Part shown: piece after piece, positions 10,501-22,200 of the stretch
Layout: every line of letters starts with the position of its first letter
Position numbering within the stretch: the stretch's first letter is position 1
Assembly: GCF_963675165.1 (NCBI RefSeq)
Contig: NC_087384.1
Location: 6,430,682-6,494,681 of the forward strand
Reading direction: 5' to 3'
Source: Halichondria panicea
Lineage: Eukaryota; Porifera; Demospongiae; Suberitida; Halichondriidae
DNA length: 64,000 nucleotides
Program-made: the position numbers and the translations under genes
The notes under the pieces: model-generated
What the model was told of the DNA's origin: nothing
The model's database searches: none
What the model saw: the letters and a program-made list of their open reading frames with translations, nothing else

Positions 10501-13500
10501 TCAAAGAATGAATGTCGATTACAATTGACTCTACTAAATTTGCTCGCACAATAAATTCTTTTATTTTTATGTATTATATTCATGTACTCCTGATTACAAT
10601 TTATAGCCTGGCAACTGTACATCACCATTTCTAATGTATACATGTACATGTACTCTGACCTCTACTCATACAGTACGACAGTGACGTGGATAGCGAGTAT
10701 GGGACCACACCCACCTCTAAACGCACCAAGAAGCCCCGTCGTCGCAAGAAAAAGAAGACGACCATCTACGATGTATACGAGCCGAGTGAACTGGAGAGAG
10801 GTCACTTCCTGGAGAGGGACACGGAGATACGGGTCACAGATATCCCAGAAAGGTCTATATGGTAGTGGGTGTGGTCTATATTGTAGTGGGATGGGTTTAG
10901 ATGAGAGTGGAATCAAAGACCTGAGCTCATTTTTTTTCTGTCAGTTGAAATGTCATATTAATGTACCTGTGTGATCGAGCATGTATTTGTGTCCAGGTTC
11001 CAGACGCGTAACATCCCGGTACAGAAACCAGAGGACCCGGGAGAGCTGGAGGATGAGGCAAGATGGGTCTACGACCAAGCCTTCCTCAACCAACCCATCT
11101 CCAAGCAGGTGACCAGTCGATTCATACATTGTGTAGTACGTACTACCATAATCGTTCTAATTAAAGAATCAGTAAAAAATAATTATTTTTCTAGAAACAA
11201 TGTACGAAAAAAATTGATTTTATATAATTATGGTAGTATATGGGCGTTATAAAAGAGGGCGTCCTAACCGAGGCTGGTTCTATAATTAGAACGCTTACGG
11301 TACTGTACAATGTTAAGTGCTAATGTCTTCACCAAAATTAGCAAATTAATATCTTATATTTATATACTAGTACTTGTATAACATCACCATCCTTGTCTGA
11401 TTGCAAATTGTAGAAATGTGTGCTTACTGTATTTTGCTCACTCGCCATTTATTAATTAACTGAACATTAATTTCCATATTTTTGCAGCCCTACCATCAAG
11501 TGGAGAAGGTCCGAGCTAGTGGGGGTCGAGGTTCCTATGGCAACAAGATGCAAGGGTCGATGGTGCCGAAGATCAAAGAAGCTCTCAATCTGATAAGAAA
11601 CCATTTCTTTGAGATCCCGTACATAGCTAATTATCGACGTGAGTATGTTGAACCTGAGCTGGACATTCATGACCTCTGGAGGATATTTCACTGGGATGAG
11701 AAGGCGAGTGGGCGGGGGAAACCCCTACTAATTAGTGGGCCAAGAAGGTGGGTAGGGGAGGTCCCTACTAATTAGAGAAACATTAGTAGAATGGTTTTGC
11801 TTGTACATGTAGCGTTAAATTTGAACGGCCATGAATTTAGTTCTGTTGGTCCAATAACGTTTATTTTATGATTTTCTGAATGCTTAGAGAGAGACCTTTC
11901 AAATGATCACACACACACACACACACACACCCACACCCACACACACACACACACACCACACGGCCACAGTGGATGCAGCTGAACAGTCGCAAGGCGAGCA
12001 TGAGACGATTGTTTAAGAGAATGAGAGACTATCAGTTTGAGAAGATGAGGGAACAACCGGACAAGGCTTTGACCGAGGACACGCGTCCAATCACAGAGGA
12101 GGATTTCACCAGGTGACCCACTCACTCAACCACATTGTTCAGTACATGCCCTTCCAATAACTACAATCCTCTTCACCTCACTTGAAAAGCAAATAGAACC
12201 ACTACAGTGTACATGTGTATATACATGTACACAGTAGGGTCACACCATGTACACATTCTACACACTTGAAGTAGCATTTCTGCTTTTTCGTTTTTAAAAA
12301 TTTAATTTCAAGTGAAGTTGAAAGGGTTGCAATCAATTCAAATTACTGTATATACGCACAATTTGGTTTCTGTAGCGACCTATCACTGTAGGTACTATCA
12401 AGAGTAGATAAGATAATATAATACTCTTATCTAACTCTTATCTACTCTTGATACTATTTATAGCTAGAAAAATTTGATAAAATTATCAACTTTTTATAAT
12501 AAATATATATAATTTTATCCCCCCCTCAATCACCAGACTGGACTGTGTGATGACACTGGAGGAGCTCACAGACGTACACGCCCACTTTACCCTGTACCAC
12601 GGCCGGGACCTCATCTCAATGCAAAACAGCCAAGTCAGCAAATCCTCCGTCCAATCAGATGAGCCGTCTACTGCTGCTGCTGACAAGGCAAAAAAAGGCG
12701 TCCGACAAGCACACAAGAGCGACTTCTACGCAAAGTGTCAGGAAAATAGTCTCTCGTCTCTAGCTGCTAAATATGGGCTAACTTCCGAACAGTTTGGGGA
12801 GAATCTGAGGGATAATTATCAGCGCCACGAGACAGAGCAGCACACCGTGGAGCCAGAGGAGGCTGCCGAGGACTATGTGGAGCCCATCGGGTGTGTAATG
12901 TGTGTGGGGTGTGGGGGTGTAGGGGGCATCGTGTGAGCGTGTGTGTGTGGGTGCGGTTGCTTAATTCAATGCTTATACAATGTATATTTAGATGCAGTAG
13001 TACATGAACATGTAAAAGAGTGGTGCTAGCTATACACATGTAGTACAGTAGAGCCAAACAGAAGAAAGGAAATGTCTTGCACAGTTAGTTGCTCTGTCTA
13101 GTACTTCTGGCACTTTTTGCTTGCAAAACCAATAAGTCCAAATCTGCCTCGGCGGCATTTTTTTTTCTCCTGTTTCTCGTTATCCTTTTCCTCGTTTTGT
13201 GTTACTATCAGTGAACCACTGTTCAGTGTCACTCCAGCAGGCTCACGTATACGTAGGTCTGGTGTAGCTGGTGTGTGTGCACTTAAGCCTGATGTAGCTG
13301 GTTCGTGTGCACTTAAGCCTGGTGTAGCTGGTCCGTGTCCACTTAAGCCTGGTGTAGCTGGTTCGTGTGCACTTAAGCCTGGTGTAGCTGGTTCGTGTGC
13401 ACTTAAGCCTGGTGTAGCTGGTTCGTGTGCACTTAAGCCTGGTGTAGCTGGTTTATGTCCACTTAAGCCTGGTGTAGCTGGTTCGTGTGCACTTAAGCCT

Positions 13501-15250
13501 GGTGTAGCTGGTTCGTGTGCACTTAAGCCTGGTGTACATGTAGCTGGTGTGTGTATGTTGTTCTTCTCCTGTTTCTCGTTATCCTTTTCCTCGTTTTGTG
13601 TTACTATCAGTGAACCACTGTTCAGTGTCACTCCAGTAGGCTCACGTATACGTAGGTCTGGTGTAGCTGGTGTGTGTACGTTGAAAGGGATAAGTGTCCA
13701 CCAACCACTGTTGAAATCTTGTATAGAAGATTGTCTAACTCTGACATTCTGCTGTTCACTTTGATTGTGAATGTCCTTATCATCGAAGCTGTTGAGACGA
13801 GCTGAGCTCAGCCTGGTAGAGGTTAAGATGAGTAGTATCAAACAAGGGTTCATCATGTTCTACACATGTAGTCAACTCAACTTTTAGCTAGAGCATACAT
13901 ATATTTTTGTCTTACTAGATCACATGACTAAAGCATAGATAGTAGAGCGGAGGGATTGGAAACATATCAGGTGACCAATGTATTGCCCTAGAGAATTCTG
14001 ACACCATGTGTGTTGCATTCCGCAAGTGTTGATTGCGATTGATTGCGAGCCAGCTGCAAAGACAGAGGAGAAGAAACTGAAGAAAACTGCAGTAAGCACT
14101 GGCAGAGCTAGTATGTATGTACAGTGATAATTATCAGCGCCAGAGCAGCACACCGTGGAGCCAGAGGAGGCCGCCGAGGACTATGTGGAGCCCATCGGGT
14201 GTGTAGTGTGTGTGGGAGGGTGTGTGTGTGGGGGGACTGTAGAGGTTGGCCTTTTATTAGGCACACGGTGGTTTATGGGGCATGATGTCATCCCTGATCA
14301 TAATATGGCATGCATGTACAGTAATAGCATAGCGATAACAATTATTATGCAATTAACACATATCACATGTTCACATCATGAGGCTATTTCTATTGAGTTT
14401 TTCAGCGATTCTAATTGGCTAGCTACCTTTCAATTGTTTAAAACTCCCAACGAGCATTAACCCCGATCTGCTGGTCCCTCATTTCTCCATGACGACCGTG
14501 AGCAGAAACTCCCACTCCAATCTTAGCCCTCCCATTGTCACCCTCATAGATTGTCTTTCCAGCATTCATATTCCATTCTCCATTTTCCCCGTTCACTTTG
14601 CCTTCAACCCATCCTCCTCCGTTAGTTTTTGCAGCAGCTATCACGTCGCCTTTAGTGTTTACATCCACAACAGCCTCATTGCTCACAGCCAGGTGAGCTA
14701 TGCAGATGATCAGCATGCAGATTAACAGATACTTCATGGTTGGTCTAGTCTCACTGGTCACTTGCGTTTCGCCTTCTTGTACTTTATATGTCTTCTCTGT
14801 TGTCCACTTGACCTTGGATATGGAACTGGAGCTAGCTTTTCCTCTTATACTACAAGAAATGGGCTGCCCCTCTGGTGAAATGCAATCTGTAAATCTTATA
14901 AACTGTTAATGTTACTGCAAATTTCCCTAGGGTATGTACCTCTGACCTGTACTTTCTGATGTAATCCCTCTTCCTAGCTCGTGACTGTGTGGGTATATTG
15001 GTTCTGATTTCACAATTTTCCCAGGGGTCTGTCGCTTTGAATATCTTTGAATAACATTCAGGGGTCTGTGCTTCAAATATCTTTGAATAACATTCCACTT
15101 CATTATGTATACCCAAGTTCAGAGTTTGTGGGCTTGAACTAATCATTAAATCATTTGCGTTGAACCATCATGACATCCATCGTAAATTATGTGTTGACAA
15201 AAATTAATAAGGTTCATGTATATAATTATACAGGTACATGTACATCACAC

Positions 15251-15318
<68 letters not shown>

Positions 15319-15958
15319 AGCCCATCCGGTGATGTATGTGACTGTGTGCTTAATTCAATAATACTGCATTTGATGTTTGCAAAATCAAATGTATGATGAG
15401 TTAGTCTATATTAACTTGTAGTTTTCTGCTCTAGTACTCATTGCTGGCTGCATCGTAGTTAATATCCAAACCGGAGGCTTTTTTGTTTCTTGCTTCTTGT
15501 TACTATCTGTGAACCACTGTCCAATGTCACTCCATCTGTACTTGGGTCTGGTGTAGCTGGTCCGTGTCCACTTAAGCCTGGTGTAGCTGGTTCATGTACA
15601 TGTATGTTGTGTGGAGTAAGTAGCCCCCAGCCACTGTTGATATCGTCTATAGGACAATGTCTAACTCTGAAACTACTCTGCTGTTCACTTTCGTTCTCTT
15701 TCTGGTGAATGTCCTTATCATCGAAGCTGTTGAGACGAGCTGAGCTCAGCCTGGTAGAGGTTAATATGAGTAGTAGTGCCAAACAGAGGTTCATCATGTC
15801 AGATACATGCAGTCTTGAAACTCAATAACATTAGATATTAATATTAATATTGTTATGTCATAATTATTACCTTATTAGGTTGGCATGCGTCGAATACTAG
15901 CTGTGTTATCTATATAACAACATTCTCCACACACCCACACCCCAGATGATATATAGAG

Positions 15959-15999
<41 letters not shown>

Positions 16000-18900
16000 T
16001 CTTCTCGACAGTACGGGCAGTGCTCCAGGGGGCGTGTCACATGGTGGCCATGCAGATAGCATGTGAGCCGATGGTGAGACAAGCCCTCAGGCAAGTCTAC
16101 CAGACCAGGGCAGTACTCAACATCAAACCTACCAAGAGTGGGAAGAAAGTAAGTCCGTAGTTTTGCTTCTATATCTCACCTTTGCAAGTCTATTACTTAC
16201 TGAATGCTGCTTTATATGAAAGCCCATATTCAATAGAATGGGAATAGCCATCAATGCTGTCATACTATTATAAAAACGGTACTTAATGATGTTAGTAGGC
16301 TGAGCAGGTACTTATAAAATATTGTAATACTGCAATGAGAACTTTAGGCATGTACTGTACATGTATGTGCAAATGTATACACATAGTTGCGTAGCACTCA
16401 TGCAGTCCTTCCTTGGTACATTGAAGTGGTAAAAATCAACTGGTTAATAAATTATGGCTGCATGTTTGTTCAAATACGTTAGCGAGTCTGTGTGCAGTGT
16501 ATATAGAACCTGTTGTGTGTTTTGCTGATGATGATCATTGCCCCCTCCCCTCAGATGATAGATGATAATCACCCTTGTTACCTATTGAAGTACCTCCGCA
16601 ACAAGCCGGTGCGTGAGCTCAAGGGGGAGGAGTTTCTCAAGCTGTGTCAGGCTGAGAATGATCGACTCCTGGAAATCAAGATCACCATCGATCTCGATAT
16701 GGGCTCTGACAAGAGGTGTGTGTGGGTGTGAGGGTGTGTGTGTGTGGTGTGTGTGCATGTAGCCTAGTTATTTGCCCAAAGCTTCAGAATTATGGTACTA
16801 CAGACAGTAGTAAATACTGGCACTGGGGTTCACAGTTGAGTAAGTGTGGGTCAAAGAAAACTGTCTGCTTTCCAAGTATAGTCATTACTTGTGAATTCTT
16901 GCCACAAATCAGAGATAGTAGCCCTTGTAGTAAAATAGTGATCTGGGCTGTATCTGAGCTCACCTTAATAAAGAAATTCATGGCCAGAAGAAATAATGCA
17001 GAAAGTCTGTACCCTCTCTGAACAATCCTCAACTGTCTGTTATGTACACATTTTATTTACCCTTGTACTAAAGTACCATCCCTGTCAGTTTGATTACAAT
17101 CCTACGGATCTCTGTGTGTTGTGCATTTATTGGAAATACAAAAAAATGGTTACTAGGCTGTTACTACTGTCTCTCCTCTACACTGCAGGGCAACTGCCTC
17201 CCACCAGACCTACTTTGAAGAGATTCGGCAGCTGTTCTTCAGGGACGAGTACAGTCTACTGGCTGAGAAATGGAACGCCCAGAGGGCACAAGCCGTGGCC
17301 CACGCTCTGCTCAAGGTCCTCTACCCCCTCATGGAGAAAGAGCTCAGAGCAAAGCTACTCACAGAGGCAAAGGAACATGTCTTACAGGTAAGAGTTTGTG
17401 TCTAGTCTCTGGGCACTGCTTGTTAGTGGGGTTATGATCTTTCATTAGCACTGGTAAACTTTTGTTAAAATGCTATATAGGATGTGTGGCCGAAAATGAA
17501 CATTGATTACATACAGTGCACCATTTGAAAGGTATTTTTCTAAAAAATAACTGTAAAACCTGTAGATAAGATCTCGTATATCCCCTCCCCCTCCGTCCCT
17601 CCAGAGCTGTGTACACAAGCTTCGTGTTTGGCTGGATAAGTCCCCCCTGAGGGTTAAGCAAGAGGAGAGCAGCCACCCTCTAGACGAGGGACCCTTCCCA
17701 CGAGTCATCGCCTGCGCTTACTCAACTGATAAGACGGTGCCGGCTTTCTGCTGCTTCATGGACAGCAATGGAGAGGTACGTGCATGTACATGTACGTTAA
17801 TCCAATGGAGAGGTATGTGTGTACATGTACGTTAATCCAATGAAGAGGTATGTGTGTACATGTACGTTAATCCAATGGAGAGGTACGTGCATGTACATGT
17901 ACGTTAATCCAATGAAGAGGTACGTGCATGTACATGTACGTTAATCTCACGGAGATAATAATATTATGGTTCATGGTTGTCAATTAAATTAACGCAAATT
18001 TCTTTTACAGCACAATAAGTTTTTTGGTGTTACTTTCATTTTTGTGTATACATGTATGTATCTAATAACCAACTGTTCGACAAACCTAAAGCGTACTTTA
18101 AAATTGTTGGGCCATTTTCTTTCAATATTCTGTTAAATAGATCCATTTGCCGTGCCTCTCCAGGTCAACGACTTCCTTCGATTGGGCAATCTTCTCAAGC
18201 GTAAAATGAGCCCTTACGAGAAAGAGAGAGAAGATAAAGCTAAAGACTTGCGGTCATTCAAACAGTTCCTCATCCGCAAGAGGCCGGACTCGATCGTGGT
18301 GGCAGCCGAGTCAAGGGAGTGTCTCAATATACAGCAAGACTTCAAGGATTGCGTGGAGGAGGCGGACAGGGAAGACGATGTGGGTATGGTCCCAGTGGAG
18401 CTGCTGGACCCTTGTCTGGCCAAGATATACTCAAAGACACAGCGTGCTCACGTGAGTATAATAGTTTTTTAACTCATGTAGAGTGGCTGTAGTGTGCTGT
18501 GATCGTAAAACGTATTCACAACTTTACTTCCCGTGTGCAGTACATTAATGATAATACAACCTTTTCAGCTCACTTGAAATGCAAACCTACTGTGTACACA
18601 TGTACTGTACACTGTTTAGTCTAGCGCATTTCTACTTTTTGGTTATCAAATTTCCAAGTAAAGTGAAAGTTTGTACTACTGTACACAAGTTCATGTACCC
18701 CCCCCCCCCTCCCAGGAGTCATACCCCGACTATCCTGAGCTGTTGAGAGTGGCTGTATCCCTCGGACGCAGTGCCCAAGAGCCTCTACAAGAGTTCACCG
18801 CTCTCTTTGCTTCCCCCGACAACGAGTACCTCTCCCTACACTTGCATCCTCTACAGAGCTGTCTGCCTCGCGATAGACTCAAGAGCTCACTGGAGATTGA

Positions 18901-19298: not shown

Positions 19299-22200
19299 AC
19301 TGATGTTTGTTGATGTTATAAGACATGTACACTCGAAATTGCTCATGTTTTGCTGCAGAGCTTCTTGGAGAATGCTAGGAAAGAGAACATTGATGCCAGT
19401 GCCATTCAGAATCGCTCACAACTGGTCATGCTGTGTTCCATCGGCCCACAAATGTTCATCAACTGTGCAGCATTCATCAAAATAGACACAGCTGCTTTCC
19501 ACAATGTGTAAGTATAGGAACTAGTGTGTATGCTCTCATGTGGTAGCGTGGCCGAGCGGTCTAAGGCGCTGGTTTAAGGCACCAGTCATTTCGATGGCGT
19601 GGGTTCGAATCCCACCGCTGCCAGTTTTTTTTTTTGCTAAAATGTTATATAGATAGATAGAGCTGCACATTCTCCTTTTTTTTTTATTGCTGTGTCACTT
19701 CCCTTTTCCCCCAGTGACAACACTTACATAGAGGTACTAGACAGTACTCGCATCCATCCAGAGACGTATGAGTGGGCACGCAAGATGGCTGTCGATGCAC
19801 TGGAATATGATGAGGTGAATTATGTTTGCTTTTTCACACTGTAGTTACTATAGTAGACATGCAGCCTTATTGTTTCAAGTAAAGCAGCAACATGATTGTT
19901 GGTATAATTATAGTCCATATTGTGGTTTTTTGTATAATTATCGATTTAGAATATGAGTTTTTGAACAGCTTATTACTGCACTCTTTAATCTCACTGATAA
20001 TCTACCCCGCCCCCTCCCCCCCAGACTGGCGATGACACGAACCCCAGCAGTGCGGTGGAGGACATTCTCCTCACCCCAGAGAAGCTGGGAGATCTTGATC
20101 TGGACGCCTTTGCCGAGGAGCTGGAGAGACAGGACTATGGCAACAAGAAGACCACCCTCTACGAGATCAGGAAGGAGCTGTACAGTCCCTTCAATGAGAG
20201 AAGAGAACCGTTCATTTCAATGAGTCAGGTATGTGTCTGATCTTGTTGGACTAAAACTCACTTTAAGATTAGAGAACATACCAGCTTTACTGTTGACTAT
20301 TATATTACACTCGCCTATAATCACTGTTCCACATTATATGTATGTGTAGTATAATTATGATTATTTGTACATGTATAGACCTACCACCCACACATACACA
20401 CCCCACACCCCACACACACACACACACACACACAGGAAGATAAGTTCGCCCTACTCACGGGGGAAACCCCGGACAGCCTCTACGAGGGAAAACTAGTCAC
20501 ATGTACTGTCGTGAGCATTGCTCGTCGTAAGCCACTCAAAGAAGTTCTGGAGAGAGCCAGTCCTATCCAAGACAAGCACTCACGTCTATGGCAGTGTCCT
20601 ATTTGTATGGCCCCCAATTTCCATGACGTTGGTTTAGTGTGGCAGCATTTTGACGATGGTAGTTGTCCCGGACAGAGTTTTGCCGCTCGTACGAGATTGG
20701 AAAACGGGTTGAGTGGGTTTCTCCTGGCTAAGAATATCAGCGACAAGAACGTGAGCTCCCCAGAGGAGAGAGTACATGTGAGTGCAATATAGCGTACATT
20801 GTGAATACTATCTAATTATAAGGAATATTGCATTTTTCTTGGTTATACCAAATTGAGCAAGAATGATCGAAGATGTTCATTCTCTGAGAGCTATTAAAGC
20901 CACTCCCACTTTCTCCCCCTTCTCATTGTAATCATTGTGTGCCTCCCATCTGTTGAGGTATTTTGAAATCTACTAGACTATGCATGACTGAGTTGTCTTG
21001 TTGCTACAGATTGGCATGACGATTCATTGTCGTATCTTGAGGGTCAACCTGGACAAGTTCTCAGTTGACCTCACCTGTCGTAGTTCCGACCTAGTGGACA
21101 AAGAAGGCAAATTCAGGTAAGCATTCGTAAAACTGTACATGTGATTAGATATCACTTTATGGTTCCCTAGGCTATACGTGTACATGACTAATAATTTATG
21201 TTGTAGTTAGATCAGTAATTTATTTCGGGTCCATTTTCTGAATAAGAAAAAGCGTGAATGTTTTTTCATAATCAGGCCTGTTTTCGTAACTAAGTTTGAG
21301 AAGCTGCAAATGTCCAATAAAAAATTTTGATAGCTCTTTGTCAATAACATCGTCTATGTCTTCTTTTGTCTCTAGATAAATCAGCATGCATTGTACTAGC
21401 CACGCCCACTTCCCATAGGGCTATTATATTTGACTTGATTACTCCCCTCCCCCCAGCCCTCCCAAGGACGTGTACTATGACCACCAGCAGGCCGAGGCGG
21501 ACAGACTGAAAGAGGACTCGGCTAAATCACGCCCCTCAACAAGTGAGACACTGTAGCTGCTGTATACATTGTGTTCGTATTTACCTTATAACAGTAAACA
21601 GCATTATTACACAACTCTGTATTATCTGTTAGTTATACACTCAGTTATTAGTTCTGCTTAGTTCTGGAACTCTAGTGTTTTAACCCCTCCCCCACCACAC
21701 TCCTGACATGTTTAACCCCTCCCCCACCACACTCCTGACATGTTTAACCCCTCCCCCACCACACTCCTGATATGTTTTAACCCCTCCCTCACCCACCCCC
21801 CACAGGGATGGTGAAGCGTGTGATTGTCCACCCTGCCTTTAAAAACTGCTCATTTGACGAAGCCGACAAATTCCTAGTCAAGCAAGAACAAGGAGAGGCC
21901 ATATTCAGACCGAGTAGCAAAGTAAGCTGAGCTACATCGCTGTGCAAGGATATGCCCACACACTAGTCGGTGGTGACCAGAGGAGGTCTGGACATGCGTG
22001 CACGAATCACTACAAGTTCAGTGCATTGATGTCATTGCGGTCACGTGATAACATCCAGGCCCAAAATGCACTGGCACTTGTAATGATTCGTGCACGCATG
22101 TCGAACTTCCTCTGGTCGGTGATTAACCATCTCTAGACAAAAGTACCACCTAGTTTTACCTATAAGGCTATAACAAAAGTCACCACTTCAAACATTCTAG

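Follow-up and report, generated by a model that had tools for sequence, protein, structure and literature searches.

Published counts of nested genes in sponges range from 2432 in Aphrocallistes vastus, 3358 in Amphimedon queenslandica and 5032 in Sycon ciliatum to 83 and 0 in two other species (PMC10282587, table 1); the same source ascribes the low counts in some sponge genomes to the annotation method, and regards nested genes as a challenge for automatic annotation. Among the nested genes described there is glassin, a single-exon gene whose His/Pro/Ser/Thr repeats vary between species and whose product, with a predicted mass of ~48 kDa, carries a conserved C-terminal domain and HX/HHX repeats (PMC10282587). 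Here we analyse a stretch of 64,000 nucleotides from the demosponge Halichondria panicea (contig NC_087384.1, positions 6,430,682 to 6,494,681; hereafter the window), in which three open reading frames (ORFs), designated A1, P99 and A2, lie on the minus strand within a single intron of SPT6. The arrangement is the same in kind as that of nested sponge genes in general and represents a local instance of them, with three ORFs of secreted appearance inside one intron.

The identity of the host gene was established by joining nine exons (10674-17775), the 562 amino acids of which match human SPT6 with an E value of 1.1e-150. The intron that carries the cluster is the longest of the eight measured in this gene, the remaining seven spanning 144-473 bp; all three ORFs are contained wholly within it, and the exon joins on either side are in frame. 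These joins, together with the human match, bear out a preliminary description of this DNA, made from the letters alone, that had placed the cluster in a 3.1-kb SPT6 intron. The three intronless minus-strand ORFs with signal peptides that it reported were also recovered, as open single frames read from DNA alone, and their starts are signal-peptide-like according to a home-made score (not SignalP), on which P99, A2 and A1 rank 2, 5 and 9, respectively, among 141 ORFs of at least 80 amino acids having no frame in common with the training ORFs. This background includes the three ORFs themselves and surely some real exons.

We propose, as a tentative reading that falls a little short of evenly balanced, that this intron is a tract of local DNA rearrangement in which three single-exon genes on the minus strand encode secreted proteins. 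A1 and A2 would stem from one duplication and would have kept their frames since, their leaders being partly evened out through gene conversion; A1 would owe its added length to slippage of a 30-bp minisatellite and to a 399-nt internal repeat. The three genes would be transcribed from their own promoters, and the signal peptide would export their products from the cell.

The paralogy of A1 and A2, which had been proposed together with a local duplication, is evident in the proteins, where 63 of 91 aligned residues are identical. Their DNA is identical at 187 of 236 coding positions (79%), compared with 40 of 76 upstream positions (53%), and coding identity is still 72% (125/174) when an identical stretch of 62 columns in the leader is left out. 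The four indels in the aligned coding part are all multiples of three, an outcome with a chance of ~0.001 if indel lengths are geometric. In the leaders, A1 and A2 share a run of 60 identical nucleotides (62 columns when a 9-nt gap is disregarded); shuffling the 231 coding columns 20,000 times never produced such a run. Gene conversion is suggested because this stretch leaves its synonymous sites unchanged too (all 13.3 of them; P ~0.012 at the rate observed after codon 30, on a small sample), and part of the leader has probably been homogenised in this manner. Protein-level constraint as the sole keeper of the leader was set aside on the same grounds, with the same reservation as to sample size. 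Codons 1-30 as a whole show two synonymous and two non-synonymous changes.

The combination of a shared leader and a variable end had been taken as the signature of rapidly evolving effector or matrix peptides, with a synonymous/non-synonymous comparison of leader and tail suggested as a check. Carried out over 91 codons, this comparison yields a non-synonymous rate (Ka) of 0.177 and a synonymous rate (Ks) of 0.267 (Ka/Ks 0.66); for the 61 codons after codon 30 the values are Ka 0.262 and Ks 0.357 (Ka/Ks 0.73). On these 61 codons Ka/Ks in the variable part does not exceed 1, and positive or diversifying selection on the tail is unsupported. The tails are themselves related, with GVTLxSGSxIVT and KK...RFG present in both, and the reported divergence of the basic C-termini therefore holds only in part, KK...RFG being common to both ends. 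Tail variability consists largely of differences in repeat number and in-frame indels, and, with a leader suggestive of gene conversion, an effector under diversifying selection is not supported as the reading of this layout.

The repeats inside A1 are in frame. The starts of its two 120-nt copies are 399 nt apart, and both 399 and the 30-bp minisatellite period are multiples of three. Among 234 residues, A1 contains 24 Pro, 21 Thr, 20 Ser and 12 His, with one His per decapeptide unit. Like glassin of A. vastus and Oopsacas minuta, A1 and A2 are single-exon frames nested in another gene; they differ from it, as far as it is described in PMC10282587, in sharing an N-terminal leader, in having a single His per ten-residue unit and in their size of 10-25 kDa. 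The histidine-rich HX/HHX repeats of glassin were not found in A1 (12 His in 234 residues), and by this criterion A1 does not qualify as a glassin. Judging by composition and analogy, a matrix or mucus role seems the likeliest for the secreted-looking, low-complexity A1 and A2, whose Pro/Thr/Ser/His decapeptide repeats would adopt an extended and disordered conformation in the mucus or extracellular matrix.

Profile searches matched A1 to the Pfam GLTT family (PF01744) with 37.4 bits against a cut-off of 21, and returned no GLTT match for A2. We take this family to be defined by five-residue xGLTT units; the ten-residue units of A1, with GLS, fall outside that definition, and we read the match as a product of the repeated GLS. 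The earlier statement that the proteins belong to no known family must be amended for the A1 repeat, and holds otherwise at curated cut-offs: NCBIfam returned no match and PHROGs gave weak rows only (best E 0.059). In the H. panicea genome (131,455,214 bases, 39 contigs), A2 matched itself and six stretches of A1, and A1 produced 36 rows. Besides A1 itself, two pieces of A2 and the opposite strand of A1, these comprise 32 others, each confined to residues 93-219, which make up the repeat region. No second copy of the A1/A2 leader was present among the matches listed. The best of the other repeat matches (C5:6913395-6913622, C10:6567551-6567856 and C12:5675166-5675396; E 8.1e-8, 1.4e-7 and 1.8e-7; 35-41% identity) may stem from further repeat-bearing proteins or from low complexity.

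The intron also holds traces of its own growth (Table 1), which, like the two in-frame repeats inside A1, do not figure in the preliminary description. An interspersed repeat at 13934-14123 matches at least 40 other places in the genome (40 of 65 candidates scored). Its sharp start is common to the window copy and 9 of 15 fetched copies, and in the alignment of all 15 the columns directly beyond the break point of the window copy are at least 90% conserved, the window copy being truncated there. Fused to it is a second copy of an SPT6 exon end with its donor site, which is out of frame because 7 nt are missing. The sequence past this second exon copy differs from that past the first. One tandem duplication comprising exon end, A gene and repeat therefore does not account for the observed order, which requires a deletion or a further event.

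Table 1. Coordinates of the SPT6 intron, its ORFs and its repeated elements in the window.
Feature	Position	Strand	Description
SPT6 intron with cluster	12891..15997	+	3107 bp; reading frame continues from exon 12537-12890 to exon 15998-16148
A1	13098..13856	-	Single-exon ORF, 252 amino acids; signal-peptide-like start, decapeptide repeats, basic C-terminus; paralogue of A2
A1 internal repeat	13159..13677	-	120-nt copies 13159-13278 and 13558-13677, 98% alike, with the minisatellite between them; in frame
A1 minisatellite	13259..13536	-	30-bp unit in 9.3 copies; in-frame translation gives a decapeptide and variants
Truncated interspersed repeat copy	13934..14123		Begins ~78 bp upstream of the A1 start codon
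Second SPT6 exon-end copy with donor site	14126..14232	+	Copy of sequence from 12811 on; fused to the truncated repeat; 7 nt missing
P99	14438..14737	-	Single-exon ORF, 99 amino acids; signal-peptide-like start, mature part 80 amino acids
Possible third vestige of exon end and intron start	15319..15359	+	AGCCCATCCGGTG...CTTAATTCAAT; short, tentative
A2	15459..15797	-	Single-exon ORF, 112 amino acids; signal-peptide-like start, about two repeat units; paralogue of A1

Whether the ORFs are genes was assessed against the possible, if doubtful, alternative that they are no genes or dying ones, in which case an intron swollen by repeats and local duplications would contain frames open by chance and a duplicated gene in decay. 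Dinucleotide shuffling of the 1010-bp block around P99 gave an ORF of at least 99 amino acids in 51 of 500 trials, which speaks for this alternative, and a minisatellite with a period divisible by three keeps a frame open unaided, the opposite strand of A1 being likewise open for 220 codons. Around A2, an ORF of at least 112 amino acids appeared in 1 of 500 shuffles, and at least two ORFs of at least 95 amino acids appeared in 9 of 200 shuffles of the intron minus its minisatellite and CA runs. The greater similarity of A1 and A2 in coding than in upstream DNA, their in-frame indels and the signal-peptide-like stretch that opens all three ORFs argue against chance or decay. The codon score of P99 (0.108 per codon) lies above the top decile (0.09) of the background (mean 0.002, standard deviation 0.066). 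P99 also has the TATA-like box that had been reported for it, TATAAAGT at -51, with an A at -3 and an AATAAA 180 nt past the stop codon on its 3' side; the only TATA-like sites of A2 are at -119 and -158.

Several results weigh against the proposal of three secreted-protein genes. Codon scores are unremarkable, and to that extent favour chance or decay, for A1 as a whole (0.064), its N-terminus (0.087) and A2 (0.044), and scores restricted to synonymous choice are near zero for all three ORFs (-0.018 to 0.025; background standard deviation 0.037). No TATA was detected within 200 nt of A1, all six poly(A) variants examined were absent within 400 nt of both A1 and A2, and the insertion of a repeat ~78 bp upstream of A1 likewise sits more easily with decay. 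Upstream, the same A1/A2 alignment has two gaps, of 87 and 3, that are likewise divisible by three. Frame retention alone is not compelling, because when 47 substitutions and four indels were simulated under neutrality, 7.1% of trials still had a frame reaching codon 80 or further out of 91. The matrix role suggested for A1 and A2 has composition and the glassin analogy as its two grounds. In the search of their own genome, A1 and A2 have only repeat-region matches outside the locus, and, apart from one plasmid match with an E value of 4, no relatives of P99 were found in its own genome or in the viral, phage, GTDB and plasmid sets, animal databases lying outside this coverage. On balance, the sequence features lean somewhat towards A1 and A2 being genes and, separately, towards P99 being one.

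In the H. panicea genome, P99 and the 1010-bp DNA block around it (14236-15245) each matched themselves only; in viral contigs 8 stretches, and in GTDB genome contigs 44 stretches, fitted a pattern with none confirmed; phages contained no relative, and plasmids gave one match with an E value of 4. The mature protein comprises 80 amino acids, of which 18.8% are Gly, and is acidic, with an isoelectric point of ~5.6. The description of P99 as a Cys-free, Gly/Asn-rich 99-mer is accurate for this mature part (0 of 80 residues are Cys) and incorrect for the signal peptide, which is not Cys-free. We would regard P99 as a separate orphan, a small, Gly/Asn-rich and probably beta-rich secreted protein.

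Two other roles for P99 were considered, and both leads are weak, below what we would trust. It is improbable that P99, and perhaps A1 and A2, are secreted defence peptides, P99 being a Gly-rich, Cys-free antibacterial that works like arthropod attacins and diptericins. The springtail diptericins described in PMC10051947 are cationic, 108-125 amino acids long, with 21-25% Gly and a mature peptide devoid of Cys. P99, small, secreted-looking by the home-made score, Gly-rich and without Cys in its mature part, comes near these values, but its mature part is acidic where the springtail peptides are cationic. An alignment score of 52 against a fly diptericin sequence was reached by 6 of 2000 shuffles; this comparison was picked after the fact. 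Whole P99 and three fragments gave no Pfam Attacin row at E<=10 (HMMER filters drop most weak rows), and the Attacin_C profile had no match in the genome, nor in any of 14 control genomes. Quite improbable, too, is an extracellular binding module in which P99 holds an SH3-derived or SH3-folded piece. In the PDB set, a segment of some 31 residues matches SH3 domains of Rho GEF 6/7, with E values of 0.0023-0.011 for whole P99 and 0.0048-0.019 for its mature part, and Pfam SH3_2 is returned at E 0.017-0.027. As controls, the reversed protein matched nothing, and the best E values of two shuffled versions were 0.26 and 0.44, none of them to SH3, although these controls amount to three sequences only. 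The Pfam match (14.6-15.2 bits) is below the cut-off of 21.8 and covers only positions 19-45 of the 55 in SH3_2. Very improbable, finally, is a broader view in which P99 would belong, within sponges, to the Gly-rich, Cys-free secreted defence peptides known from arthropods, or be their convergent counterpart, and would share a nested locus with the repeat-driven, length-changing A1 and A2. The intron would then serve, sheltered by an essential gene, as a nursery in which local duplication, gene conversion and the growth of minisatellites give rise to new secreted genes.

Further observations concern the host gene and its surroundings. SPT6 contains a GC-AG intron at 11704-11969, with a GCGAGT start, a CCACAG end and flanking exons in frame. 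The ends of the long intron, GT-rich at 12891-12956 and (AC)n at 15950-15997, could pair in a duplex of -43.8 kcal/mol, compared with -3.5 to -30.7 kcal/mol for ends of the same lengths in the other seven SPT6 introns; such pairing may aid splicing of the long intron. The order of GT and AC runs across 264 kb gave little signal (5 versus 3 neighbouring pairs). Elsewhere in the window there is a (TG)n tract that continues without interruption for 410 bases (623-1032) and, on the plus strand, a tRNA at 19542-19623, which was the sole Rfam family match in the window at the gathering threshold.

At the level of the genome, a Peptidase_C1 search returned 77 matches. Seven small pieces were examined, of which five have the active-site motif, with the usual Cys in four and Ser in one. 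The latter, L055 on contig C2, reads QGDCGASYAFS, with Ser replacing the usual Cys, and has silicatein alpha as its best PDB match (E 3.1e-12; cathepsins 5.1e-10 or weaker). According to PMC10282587, silicatein occurs in Demospongiae and was not found in two glass sponge genomes. This silicatein-like exon is a difference between the present genome and the glassin-bearing glass sponges, and taken by itself it would make a demosponge the most likely host. Seven Peptidase_C1-like open frames lie on one strand within 28 kb (C8:493345-521186). The assembly yielded a single COX1 match, a fragment on an 18-Mb contig (C1:5280527-5280718) that contains two TGA codons in frame and looks like a transferred mitochondrial piece.

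The locus was not described among the titles and abstract openings listed on attacins or diptericins of sponges or non-insects, Gly-rich antimicrobial peptides of sponges, and nested genes in sponges or metazoans, and a search on nested secreted lineage-specific genes returned nothing. It is a further instance of nested sponge genes, with a readable history of intron growth, and, given how common such nesting is in sponges, the find is a modest one. It also cautions that a conserved leader next to a variable tail can have its origin in gene conversion and repeat slippage and need not reflect an arms race. If the ORFs are real genes, they would provide a compact example of new secreted genes arising and changing length inside the intron of an essential gene, by a route of duplication, gene conversion and in-frame minisatellite growth.

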